Virus record (IMG/VR): IMGVR_UViG_3300042987_000890
Coordinates: 1-20,098 of that record
Origin: a virus
Direction: 5' to 3' (one strand)
DNA length: 20,098 nt
The notes under the pieces are model-generated. The model made no database searches. It was not told the origin of the DNA and was given only the letters and a program-made list of their open reading frames with translations. Shown here one piece after another: positions 10,983 through 20,098 of this stretch; the stretch's first letter is position 1, and each line of letters opens with the position of its first letter. The translations under genes and the position numbers were made by a program.

Positions 10983-11253
10983 CTGGCGCAGTCCATTCGT
11001 TATTGATTAGAACGTAGTTTGGTGGAACGAACTCATCCCGTTCACGGTCATACATATAGCCAATACCAGCGTATCTTCTACGTATATTGCCATTGTATGA
11101 TGTCTGAACCCATTCACCTCCGAGTAGATTGTTCAAGAATATTGCGCCAAGTGTTTCATCTTCAGTATTGTCATGTGTAGCGTGAGTAACTTCATTAGCA
11201 ACAACAACAACACGAACTACTCTATGGTCTATGATCTCAGCATAGTGTGCCAT
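10960..11253 (-). CDS. Small conserved phage protein, tail-fibre associated
   Basis: A protein of 97 residues. The pattern VTHATHDNTEDE..., FLNNLLGGEWVQTSYN, RRRYAGIGYMYDRERDEFVPPNY is one I know from small phage proteins (many in cyanophages and other tailed phages) with 'WxQTSYN ... RKNYAGIGYTYDxxxDxFIPP'. They lie near tail-fibre or structural genes and have no proven function that I can cite. The ATG at 11253 overlaps the stop of the preceding gene as TGATG, so translation is coupled to the glycine-rich fibre gene. This suggests a partner or assembly factor for that fibre, by inference. Confidence 0.8.
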   Translation of the reverse strand: MAHYAEIIDHRVVRVVVVANEVTHATHDNTEDETLGAIFLNNLLGGEWVQTSYNGNIRRRYAGIGYMYDRERDEFVPPNYVLINNEWTAPDEDVPAS

Positions 11254-12122
11254 CAGACAAACCTCGGTATGGCAATAATCACGATGCCTGAGCCACCTGC
11301 GCCTGAAGTGTTGCCACCAATACTGGCGCTACCGCCACCACCAGTGTTTGCGGTGCCCGCACTGCCGCCACCACCACCTCCGCCGCTTCCGCCTGACGCG
11401 GCTGAAGTGTTGGTACCACCACCACCTCCGCCCGCACGTGTAACGCCATCGATCCATGGAGCACCGGCACCACCCGCACCGGGTGTTGCGCCACCGCCGC
11501 TGGCAGCCGTTCCCGCCGCGCCTGCCCCTCCTCCGCCACCACCGGAACCTGCTCCACCGGCCAACCCCGCTCCGCCTGCGTTGCCTTGCCTGCCGGTTGC
11601 CGCACCCGCCGTACCGCCGCTCGTTGAATAAACTCCACCACCTCCGCCGCTTCCACCGGTCAAGCCATTTGGTGCGTATATACCGCCACCGCCACCTCCG
11701 CCTGTTGCTGTGATGTCATCCGTTAGCATTGACGTTTGCGTGAATGACGACGCTACGCCTTGCGATCCAGTTCCGCCAGCAATCCCAGCACCGCCAGCAC
11801 CAACCGTCACCGTATATGTACTGCCAGCAACAAGTTGAACGCTGCGCTTGATGACTCCCCCAGCACCGCCGCCGCCACCCTGAAAACTGCCACCTCCGCC
11901 GCCGCCCGCGATAACCAACACCTGTGCCGTCACCGTGCGGTTGGCGCTTCCAGCCACTAACGTGCCCGTTCCAGTTGCCGTGTACGTATACACGTCGTAG
12001 ATCACACCACCATAAGCGACTACGCTCACGGTTGGGCTGCCGGTGGTCGTCCATCTGGTATTGCGCAGCGTATTTGCCTTTTGTCCGTTGATATTAGCAA
12101 CGCTTGCTGTCGTTACGCTCAC
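11253..12122 (-). CDS. Glycine-rich tail-tip/fibre protein, probable adhesin
   Basis: A protein of 289 residues starting at a GTG at 12122, with GGAG 10 bases before it; no in-frame ATG was found upstream before a stop. After a beta-rich N-terminal part ending in VLVIAGGGGGGSFQGG (about residues 65-82) the rest is dominated by runs of five to seven glycines with GGAGG repeats, closing with GGSGIVIIAIPRFV. This layout (VLVxAGGGGG, VTVGAGGAG, GGSGIVII) is frequent in phage and bacterial fibre proteins. Polyglycine-II helix bundles in phage S16-type gp38 adhesins show how such runs can bind receptors. A receptor-binding role is inferred. Confidence 0.82.
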   Translation of the reverse strand: MSVTTASVANINGQKANTLRNTRWTTTGSPTVSVVAYGGVIYDVYTYTATGTGTLVAGSANRTVTAQVLVIAGGGGGGSFQGGGGGAGGVIKRSVQLVAGSTYTVTVGAGGAGIAGGTGSQGVASSFTQTSMLTDDITATGGGGGGGIYAPNGLTGGSGGGGGVYSTSGGTAGAATGRQGNAGGAGLAGGAGSGGGGGGAGAAGTAASGGGATPGAGGAGAPWIDGVTRAGGGGGGTNTSAASGGSGGGGGGGSAGTANTGGGGSASIGGNTSGAGGSGIVIIAIPRFV

Positions 12123-18600: not shown

Positions 18601-18647
18601 TCTGCGATAGCAGTGATGCGAATGACACCACCAGCGTTACCGGCCAT
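15606..18647 (-). CDS. Tail tape measure protein with embedded Hint domain
   Basis: A protein of 1013 residues, by far the longest in the tail module and preceded by chaperone genes, as usual for tape measure proteins, which set tail length and fill the tail tube. The N-terminal part has helical, coiled-coil-like and hydrophobic stretches (about 53-80 and 340-375, VLGQLGVAVAVVLGHVMSIL). Near the end is the typical tape-measure signature GGIVMKPTPAIVGEAGPEAVIPL (split: residues 936-958). Just before it, residues 774-921 form a Hint domain, preceded by a glycine-rich hydrophobic segment (750-773). The ATG at 18647 overlaps the previous stop as TGATG. Without the Hint domain the protein would be 865 residues. 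GGCGCGCC at 16426-16433 reads Gly-Ala-Pro shortly upstream of the Hint. Confidence 0.93.
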   Translation of the reverse strand: MAGNAGGVIRITAIADDKATGPLSKLQGKVEELQRGFDDATGAVSDAAKSFLGLGGASLTVAAGIGVVVAAISAAAIGFSQYASEAIKAADGNRKLSKSFNALISDTQKTEETLQALQDFAGFTAFKADDIKEVALGLLQAGVAADELIPTLAGLGGAAQGNTDNLKALASQFQTLADTPKATVKSLRGFATNGVDALQLLAEATNQTKEQLINNFNSMNMSGADAARLLLAKSAEKFGSAMLQDVENIDNLLARAADSAGNAQEALGNALEPLRKVSLKAQVDYFNGLTQFFKDTFDNPIFARLFGQDGSVSQAISNISEMMGPVMRVLGQLGVAVAVVLGHVMSILGVVAKMLTPLFKGIEKAVQPAFEVFMELFDLFQAIYEIVIEAASAFSDLLAPIFGVVGEFNILSTALRFIASMLRTATEYLRAFGKLLKPLWDWLRSVANIVKDAADGIRTFFASLGLGPKAGADGATGSDFFKDALLNLIPVIGPVITLVQTLLEKLGLIPPVKKVDVQVNVPNLGDVNANVNVNVNARNVSVVDNLKAKLAELVDKKINIDVNIGQSQTNIEKVRDALLWYKPEFGILFTASTVVATVLVEKFQQLLGNVPAEVPTTVTVTTEPAMTQVSDFNTNIRNIPTVQTTVGIRIADASRELLKYISDMFTVPLALKTGFSLAFGNAFAELANWSGALNAIPRMITTVVNTIQGKTEVADQQAAPATQFAGEDIIVDGSSTSRGAPITSGGAGDVAAGAIILGGAAIGIGAGAGLFGGCFVGDTLVSTPNGYVPIEQLVVGQYVTLYTVDGVVVAAPIAEVFVFDNRTIMQIITSDAKTGGYWETIEVTGEHPFAVVNDHQDIPVPYEFIRAANLQVGMELRNAYGRSRRVHSIRMVGYTSRVYNLEVDHPDHTYLVGKFKHVVHNRKGAGGEDWLLLASGGIVMKPTPAIVGEAGPEAVIPLGQLNDMLGGGGGVNIASLVINVAGSFSDPVAAGASAADAFRRQLGLQRRMLFQTT
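15885..16328 (-). other. Hint (intein-like) domain inside the tape measure protein
   Basis: Residues 774-921 of the tape measure protein. Block A starts at Cys774: CFVGDTLVSTPNGY then PIEQLVVGQYV. Block B is EVTGEHPFAV with Thr844 and His847. The C-terminal blocks are RVYNLEVDHPDHTYLVG and KHVVHN, ending with His920-Asn921. All key residues for an N-S shift and for Asn cyclisation are present. The next residue is Arg922, not Cys/Ser/Thr, so ordinary splicing lacks its nucleophile. At 148 residues it has no homing endonuclease. It looks most like bacterial-intein-like A-type or polymorphic-toxin Hint domains (known for VYNLxVxxxHTYxVG ... VHN). Likely outcome: C-terminal or N-terminal cleavage near Asn921/Cys774. 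Confidence 0.88.
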
Positions 18648-18901
18648 CAGCGTGCTTTCTGTTTAGCCTTGCGTGATCGTTCTTGTTGAACTTGTGACTC
18701 ATAACTCTCAAGTAACAGTAGACGCTCACGCCATAGTGGCGGTAGTCGCAACACTTGTTTAGGCGTGTAGCCATACTTGCGCATTAGTATGGCGTCTGGT
18801 ACCCAACTAGGTGGATTGACTTTATGTCCCTCCACCCATGCGAATAGACGTTCACGCTCCGCTTTTGGGTACGTTGAAGAGTTGTCCAACCTCGCTGACA
18901 A
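18647..18901 (-). CDS. Tail assembly chaperone, frameshifted second part (GT extension)
   Basis: An open frame of 84 codons overlapping the end of the 110-residue chaperone by 50 bases. It lacks an ATG in the overlap: the first start-like codon is TTG (18901) with no ribosome site, and a stop codon lies five codons upstream. It should therefore be made as an extension of the first chaperone by +1 (or -2) frameshifting. Its sequence is basic and helical (YPKAERERLFAWVEG, YTPKQVLRLPPLWRERLLLLESYESQVQQERSRKAKQKAR), with YGYTPKQVLxLP typical of the second part of phage tail chaperones. The fused protein, if shifted at CCC, would have about 178 residues. It precedes the tape measure gene, whose start overlaps its stop. 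Confidence 0.82.
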   Translation of the reverse strand: MSARLDNSSTYPKAERERLFAWVEGHKVNPPSWVPDAILMRKYGYTPKQVLRLPPLWRERLLLLESYESQVQQERSRKAKQKAR

Positions 18902-19184
18902 TACATTCCACTACGTGTGACGGAACACGATCAAACGCTTCTACGCTAACTGGTAGACGTTCGTCTGTATCTGCGTCCAACAAGTTCCAGTCAACGATCA
19001 GCGCAACCATCTGATGAAGGCTACGTGTAACGTCATCCAAGTCTTGCCGTTGTGCTGCGGCAATCAGTTGAGACTTTACTTTCCACTTCATGCTTTCTGG
19101 ATGAGCCACTTCGATGTAGAAGTCTGGTTCATCACAAGCACTAAGTGCAATCCGTTTCGTGACTGGCTTCTTGTTGTACGACAT
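18852..19184 (-). CDS. Tail assembly chaperone, first part (G)
   Basis: A protein of 110 residues from the ATG at 19184 with AGGAGAGCGT just upstream. It lies between the major tail gene and the tape measure gene, which is the place of the G/GT chaperone pair in siphophages. The middle is helical (PESMKWKVKSQLIAAAQRQDLDDVTRSLHQMVALIVDWNLLDADTDERLPVSVEAFDRVP, quoted in pieces in the family as 'VxxxWNLxDxDxxxLP'). Such proteins bind tape measure protein during tail assembly. The end (FNVPKSGA) overlaps the second part; the CCC AAA at 18869-18864 is the likely shift site. Confidence 0.85.
   Translation of the reverse strand: MSYNKKPVTKRIALSACDEPDFYIEVAHPESMKWKVKSQLIAAAQRQDLDDVTRSLHQMVALIVDWNLLDADTDERLPVSVEAFDRVPSHVVECIVSEVGQLFNVPKSGA
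18864..18869 (-). promoter_or_regulatory. Candidate programmed frameshift site, +1 at CCC-AAA
   Basis: In the first chaperone frame, codon 106 is CCC followed by AAA AGC. A proline tRNA slipping one base forward to CCA continues as AAA GCG GAG in the second frame. No canonical X-XXY-YYZ site fits a -1 shift, since the second frame is +1 (or -2) relative to the first. A +1 shift on CCC has precedent in Listeria phage PSA. The exact site is inferred. Confidence 0.6.
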
Positions 19185-19195
19185 ACGCTCTCCTG

Positions 19196-20098
19196 TTAGT
19201 ACGCAGTTGATTGTGCGTTGTTCAAGACTACCTTGATTGGTCCAGAGTCAGTTGTGTTGTACATAGCGCGGCCGCTAAACGTCAACTGATACAAACCACT
19301 GCCCATGTCGCGCGTCGCAGCACCCTCGCCATAGTTCGCGTTGGTCATCGTGAATGCGATTGAACGCAATGTAGTCGATGCGCCATACGTACACGTGAGA
19401 ACAATCGGATGCTCTGTGAACGCGCCACTACTGCCAAGGTACTTCGTCAAGTCATCCGTAGGCGTTGCGCCAGCGTCTAACGCTACGCTAAACGTCACCT
19501 CTAGTCGTCCCTCGTCAATCCGAATAGGATCACGTGAACCAGTCGCGTGAATAGGATCAGCGGCGCGAGTCATCGTAAGGCTGAACGTAGTCACGCGCGC
19601 AACTACGCTGCCACCTAGCGATACGCTAGCGTCGATGCCAATCCATGGCTTCTCTAACGTTGCCGTCAATCCTGTCGTTCGTGTATTGGTCGTTGGTGTC
19701 TTACCAGTCCACGAACTTGTTGCCTGAAGTAGTCCATCCGCAGCGTTGAACGTGAAGCCAACCTCTGAACACTTCAGTCCGGTATAGGTACGATCTTGCG
19801 TTGGGTTGACATCTTCGATTGTATATGACGGAGTTGCTGCCGCTAGCGTAAACGTATGGACGTATGGAGTGCTTGCGCCAGTCTTAGTATCAGTTCCAAG
19901 GATAGCCATCAGGTAGTGACCGATAGTCGATGGGTAGGCTGGTCCTTCAAGGCTAACGGTAGAACGTCCACCACCTTGAAGCAACTGGTAGTCCATCGCT
20001 GCGATACCGCGCCTGCCGCTATCACGGACAGCGTTGTACTCGGTCGTGAACGTAGGATCAGACGTGACTGGGATGATGTCCGTTGCGCTGACTTCTGT
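19196..20098 (-). CDS. Major tail (tube) protein, 5' end outside window
   Basis: At least 300 residues; the frame stays open without a stop to the right edge, and the upstream codons read as normal protein (SATDIIPVTSDPTFTTEYNAVRDSGRRGIAAMDY), so the ATG at 19996 is not the start. It also has no ribosome site there. The protein is beta-rich with repeated Thr/Gly/Ser strands (YVHTFTLAAATPSYTIEDV, FSLTMTRAADPIHATGSRDP, AGATPTDDLTKYLGSSGAF, LYQLTFSGRAMYN). The motifs YTGLKCSEVGFTF, SLTMTRAADPIxATGS and RLEVTFS are the kind seen in siphophage tail tube proteins. It comes right before the chaperone pair and tape measure gene, the usual order. I rest the call on these patterns and on position. Confidence 0.85.
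   Translation of the reverse strand, partial: TEVSATDIIPVTSDPTFTTEYNAVRDSGRRGIAAMDYQLLQGGGRSTVSLEGPAYPSTIGHYLMAILGTDTKTGASTPYVHTFTLAAATPSYTIEDVNPTQDRTYTGLKCSEVGFTFNAADGLLQATSSWTGKTPTTNTRTTGLTATLEKPWIGIDASVSLGGSVVARVTTFSLTMTRAADPIHATGSRDPIRIDEGRLEVTFSVALDAGATPTDDLTKYLGSSGAFTEHPIVLTCTYGASTTLRSIAFTMTNANYGEGAATRDMGSGLYQLTFSGRAMYNTTDSGPIKVVLNNAQSTAY

Follow-up and report, generated by a model that had tools for sequence, protein, structure and literature searches.

Probable +1 frameshifting in a viral tail assembly chaperone whose more distant relatives carry the same heptamer in the -1 phase

We analysed an IMG/VR virus record of 20,098 bases (in the following, the window means this whole stretch). 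It contains two overlapping frames which, judging from sequence comparison, probably encode a lambda-type tail assembly chaperone in its two forms, G and GT. Very probably, this chaperone is shifted by +1 at CCC_AAA_A, which would give a G protein of 110 aa and a GT protein of 178 aa. Related contigs have the same slippery sequence, mostly in the phase that suits a -1 shift, and the most likely explanation is that the direction was reversed in the lineage of the window through two one-base length differences beside the heptamer, with the product unchanged. The notable point is this reversal within one chaperone family and on one slippery sequence, which goes against the published generalisation that the direction of such shifts is conserved among orthologues.

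The gene pair and its neighbours

The genes around the junction lie on the minus strand (Table 1). A Phage_tube_2 gene is followed by ORF1 with the second frame and then by the tape-measure gene, which is the position of a G/GT pair. The ATG of ORF1 is preceded by AGGAG, and the TGA of the putative T part overlaps the ATG of the tape-measure gene.

Table 1. Features around the junction of the two frames
Feature	Position	Strand	Remarks
Tail tube protein	19196..20098	-	Phage_tube_2, E 1.2e-21; runs off the window; upstream neighbour of ORF1
ORF1, probable G-type tail assembly chaperone, 110 aa	18852..19184	-	ends ...NVPKSGA*; open reading frame, fold, gene order
Overlap holding the predicted frame change	18852..18910	-	59 nt; second frame open from 18910
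Predicted shift site CCC AAA A (ORF1 phase)	18863..18869	-	sole +1 re-pairing codons of the overlap
Putative transframe T part, PKAERERLF...KQKAR	18647..18868	-	+1 frame; 73 aa including the Pro
Possible 3' stem-loop stimulator (weak)	18793..18850	-	starts 12 nt after the heptamer, just past the ORF1 stop
Tape-measure protein, 1013 aa	15606..18647	-	phrog_12798 tape measure, E 1.2e-9; downstream neighbour

The original prediction had called the pair a tail chaperone. The gene order, the predicted fold of ORF1 and the profile homology with the gene at the corresponding position in Thermoanaerobacterium phage THSA-485A all argue for this reading, which we regard as probable. The fold was modelled with AlphaFold2 (pLDDT 82), and the best BFVD matches to the model are two proteins named tail assembly chaperone, from the Bacillus phages Gemini (E 1.7e-4, TM 0.56) and 019DV002 (E 4.0e-4); an entry without a name ranks between the two. 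When PDB chains were compared using VIA-align, the HK97 tail assembly chaperone 2ob9 came first, with a modest Z of 3.9 that is tied with a chain of unrelated name; a Foldseek search of the model against PDB returned nothing significant. The profile of the G part matches the THSA-485A gene with an hhalign E of 2.2e-7 over 77 columns, and a gene of Bacillus phage PS1 weakly (E 2.1e-4 over 40 columns). The comparison of the T-part profile is weak (E 0.0022). Furthermore, ORF1 matches phrog_9046, a family of unknown function (E 5e-6), whereas Pfam has no family at cut-off for ORF1 or for 10 aligned members, and an NCBIfam scan of the joined protein gave nothing or little. Note that in the THSA-485A record (L012, 5995-6261) the T frame after the G gene is unannotated, and that the PS1 record (L013, 5075-5335) lists each part as a hypothetical gene of its own despite a -1 heptamer in their overlap.

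Several other features of the window deserve mention in their own right. The tape-measure protein has, close to its C-terminus (residues about 773-930), a domain of the HINT type (matches to PT-HINT, E 3.4e-7, and intein_Nterm, E 1.2e-6), which is also present in all three aligned relatives of the -1 group described below (L050, L051, L055). Splicing needs C, S or T after the HN motif. In these domains the terminal HN is followed by R, F or Y instead, and because of this the domain may serve cleavage rather than splicing. At 11253-12122 on the minus strand we find a strongly glycine-rich protein with long proline-rich open frames on the opposite strand, and nothing in NCBIfam. The minus-strand folds of highest stability (z -5.8 to -6.9), at 8885-8815, 5525-5461, 9581-9504 and 325-248, cover gaps between open frames and are terminator-like.

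The overlap and the shift site

Relative to ORF1, the second frame lies at +1 (or, what amounts to the same, at -2), as had been predicted and as the extents of the two frames (19184..18852, and open from 18910) confirm. The predicted overlap of 50 bases is obtained if one counts from the first TTG at 18901, and the full overlap to the ORF1 stop is the 59 nt of Table 1. The junction of the window reads GTACCCAAAAGCGGAGCG. In the ORF1 frame the site is GTA CCC AAA AGC GGA GCG TGA, that is, the codon after CCC is AAA, and the stop TGA is the fifth codon after CCC. The listed genes of the window (about 6,000 codons) contain a single CCCAAAA and two in-frame CCCAAA.

We enumerated the 19 P-site codons of the overlap and counted a +1 re-pairing where both first codon positions are kept. 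Just two adjacent codons allow it, CCC (to CCA) and AAA (to AAA), and the first of these is the slip of a proline tRNA that the original prediction had proposed. Other +1 sites in the overlap were tried as candidates, and none of them re-pairs. A -1 shift in the window was rejected as well: there is no in-phase X XXY YYZ (the canonical -1 heptamer) in the overlap, in agreement with the earlier claim that no such heptamer suits, and the -1 frame runs into its end 27 codons downstream (as seen in a +1 relative that has the same junction).

The heptamer in related contigs

Using ORF1, the second frame and the tube protein as queries, and also their alignments, we found 25 related contigs in IMG/VR. 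Three of them do not span the junction and were left out (3300006917_001735, 3300043396_000025 and 3300046804_002314, the last judged solely by a match at the end of the locus), and the other 22 together with the window make a junction set of 23 records. All 23 have CCCAAA followed by A or C at the junction, which answers the suggestion of the original prediction to compare this sequence among related genomes. In 20 records the first frame has the heptamer in the phase C CCA AAA/C, from which a canonical -1 shift would lead into the second frame. The remaining three, i.e. the window, 3300001838_000083 and 3300001843_000077, read CCC AAA A and need +1. A DNA pattern of the +1 arrangement matches 8 contigs among all those of IMG/VR, and of these only the same two hold chaperone genes. 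Two scans of genome contigs with the fused and the tube alignments gave 38 and 64 pattern matches, respectively, and no relative. A tblastn search of the joined proteins against phages found none at E 0.1; when the limit was E 3, just two records came up, both weak and from archaeal viruses; ORF1 alone had one weak phage match (E 0.3).

The predicted joined product has 177, 178 or 181 aa in 22 of the 23 records (the last one is cut off), and the products are colinear at the joint: the window has VP-K-A-ERER, and the -1 relatives have VP-K-S-ERER or VP-N-REREQ. When the second frame of the window is aligned with the -1-accessed frames of seven relatives, the identity is 51-62% for a stretch of about 73 aa, and the homology of the T part starts at the slip codon. 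This identity, the scarcity of the motif in the genes of the window and its presence at all 23 junctions indicate that the arrangement is not due to chance. The equal length of the joined products and their closely similar sequence around the joint give additional backing to a +1 shift at CCC-AAA.

How do the two arrangements differ? At the junction, the relative 3300027763_000861 reads GTCCCAAAAGCGAGCG. Compared with this contig, the window has one extra base before the heptamer and one extra base after it. As a result of these two one-base length differences the two frames exchange their roles relative to the heptamer, and with the roles exchanged the +1 movement (CCC to CCA, AAA to AAA) runs opposite to the -1 movement of the relatives. 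According to our reading of the sequence, either length difference without the other would make the two frames continuous.

We consider it improbable that the second frame stands for a gene of its own which starts from TTG (18901 or 18889) and is coupled to the translation of ORF1. Coupled overlapping genes are common, and these two TTG codons of the second frame lie 11 and 7 codons before the shift (read on an identical relative). However, the TTG is present in the +1 records and is not conserved, so that the second frame has no conserved start of its own, as fits a G/GT pair. No ATG, GTG or TTG lies within 41 codons upstream of the slip in the T frame in any of the 16 -1 contigs with listed starts (16 of the 20; the truncated 3300043446 and three contigs found later are outside this set), and a homology that begins right at the slip codon also argues against a separate gene. 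The original prediction had stated that the second frame has neither an ATG nor a ribosome site: by eye, there is indeed no well-placed SD at either TTG, but an in-frame ATG does exist later on (the Met of LMRKYG).

It is even harder to believe that sequencing or assembly indels have created the arrangement and that the true window is -1 like its relatives. Two one-base length differences near the site could raise this suspicion, but the same 36 nt around the site are found in all three +1 records. The other two contigs come from distinct strains, with 96.3% identity to the window over 7,959 nt for one and 97.0% over 3,162 nt for the other, and differ from it in 6 of 760 nt in the chaperone region. 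Two errors common to three assemblies that leave both frames open are unlikely.

We give very little credence to transcriptional slippage (programmed transcriptional realignment) in place of a ribosomal shift. In its favour one could say that the direction differs among orthologues; the passage of Antonov et al. 2013 (PMC3711429) drawn on here holds that direction is conserved among ribosomally shifting orthologues and that a difference is a sign of transcriptional slippage. On the other hand, the runs at the site are just C3 and A4, whereas a literature passage gives runs of over 7 for A and over 8 for T, and both CCC AAA A and C CCA AAM permit a re-pairing of tRNAs that slippage would not need. 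Finally, a -2 route, with ribosomes going back two bases, was the alternative named in the original prediction and is permitted by frame arithmetic, but it is highly improbable, as a move back by two bases allows no re-pairing for any of the 19 P-site codons of the overlap and the -2 product would have one residue more at the joint, whereas the +1 product is the colinear one.

Given the +1 shift as the preferred reading, we turn to its polarity. When the joined proteins are placed in a tree, the +1 records form a single clade (98/100), for which one change is needed; note that this clade comprises only three records, all close relatives. The outgroups THSA-485A and PS1 are both arranged for -1, with heptamers (identified by eye from the overlap) that are GGGTTTT in THSA-485A and A-rich in PS1. 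Since the +1 rows are one clade and the THSA-485A homologue is arranged for -1, the +1 arrangement looks derived, and -1 is likely to be ancestral. The branches of the outgroups are very long in this tree, so that the polarity is not firmly rooted.

Possible mechanism and known systems

We infer that most ribosomes stop at the TGA of ORF1 and produce G, and that a small fraction slip by +1 on CCC_AAA_A and produce the GT fusion (...NVP-KAERER...); in G/GT systems this fraction amounts to a few percent. The likeliest step would be a re-pairing of the proline tRNA on CCC with the overlapping CCA. The lysine tRNA possibly moves along, from AAA to AAA; both routes would yield the identical protein. 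In the more distant relatives that were sampled, CCCAAAA/C would be read as C CCA AAA/C and lead to the same frame by -1.

The codon usage of the window is consistent with such a step: CCC is the second-rarest sense codon (3.2 per 1000; 19 of 187 prolines), and AAA is the minor lysine codon (44 of 196 lysines). The passage on tRNA-Pro(UGG) that we drew on (PMC4519876) describes weak pairing with CCC and forward slipping in E. coli, similar to what we propose; there, the slip was studied on CCC-C and as an error, not as a programme. For this tRNA a move from CCC to CCA would improve the third pair, although host tRNAs may differ, and no tRNA genes were found in the window. The rarity of CCC alone does not predict direction, because CCC is also low in the -1 outgroups. 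Per 1000 codons, we count 2.6 in the long frames of the window, 1.3 in its relative and 3.3 to 20.1 in nine -1 relatives, compared with 1.7 and 0.9 in the two outgroup phages.

The candidate stem-loop downstream of the heptamer has a z of -3.69 in the window and -2.25 in L048, both of them +1, and of -0.36 to 1.11 in six -1 relatives, in which the 3' fold is not better than shuffled sequence. Since an equally low score is reached by 2.7% of the window's stretches (1,541 in all), the stem-loop is not exceptional, and we do not rely on it. A close upstream SD-like element was not found. A prfB-type +1 shift has UGA as the A-site codon and an SD-like element that precedes the site by a few nt. 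In the window the A-site codon is AAA, and the SD-like match that scores best ends 18 nt upstream. Between +1 and -1 records the SD-like sequences differ in position and not in strength, which allows no conclusion on a role of the SD.

The -1 programmed frameshift of lambda G/GT was reportedly described by Xu, Hendrix and Duda in 2004. As far as the passages of the literature used here go, lambda (review PMC5009743) resembles the window in the order of tube, G/GT and tape measure, in the overlapping frames, in the short and long product and in the chaperone-like fold, the last two being predictions on the side of the window; the window differs in needing +1, with CCCAAAA in the other phase. 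Tail chaperones with +1 are described for the haloviruses HSTV-2 and the HF1 group (PMC5009743, PMC8211752, PMC7230728). Like the window, they have a pair joined by an apparent +1 shift. In the HF1 group the motif is TTT-CGC and no conventional slippery sequence is involved, unlike the CCCAAAA of the window, and the passages compared describe no -1 sister group on the same heptamer for the known +1 chaperones. The SEA-PHAGES training data, as given in section 7 of PMC10885494, contain 350 forward and 2368 backward motif cases (2718 in total), and phage Mu is cited as -2 in the passages of PMC2628397 and PMC4378225.

A difference in direction between related phages has been described for Listeria capsid genes, where A118 and A500 shift by -1 and PSA by +1 (passages of PMC5009743). 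PSA slips on proline CCC, as in our reading of the window, in which a P-site CCC can re-pair one base forward. The Listeria cases are extensions of capsid and tail-shaft proteins, and the review ties the mix of directions to the chance insertion of Ig-like domains, whereas in the family of the window both heptamer and product are kept. Furthermore, in the +1 sites of the Listeria tail genes a stop follows the site, whereas in the window AAA follows. For a site of the PSA type one would expect a stop codon or else a pseudoknot immediately behind it, and what the window has downstream is the predicted hairpin described above, which is not exceptional. As +1 chaperones and differences in direction have already been reported, +1 itself is uncommon, not new. 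In the openly readable literature that we searched, we found no report of a tail-chaperone family that reverses direction on one heptamer.

A further idea, which we put forward tentatively and which may well be wrong, is that CCCAAAA acts as a programme which can run in either direction: in the phase C CCA AAA it would give -1, and in the phase CCC AAA A it would give a tandem two-tRNA +1, the exact reverse, with the lineage having switched from one to the other while the joined protein stayed unchanged. If this is true, the rule of a conserved direction among ribosomally shifting orthologues is broken, and there would be a general "XXX YYY Z" class of +1 sites that can be searched for in other chaperone genes. 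The two arrangements are a matched natural pair, with the same family, heptamer and product and opposite direction, and would thus provide a clean test of what determines direction on the bacterial ribosome, in which codon phase alone, tRNA-Pro isoacceptors together with codon rarity, and flanking stimulators can be separated. For the family itself, the reversal suggests that the fused product is what selection maintains, whichever way the ribosome slips to make it.
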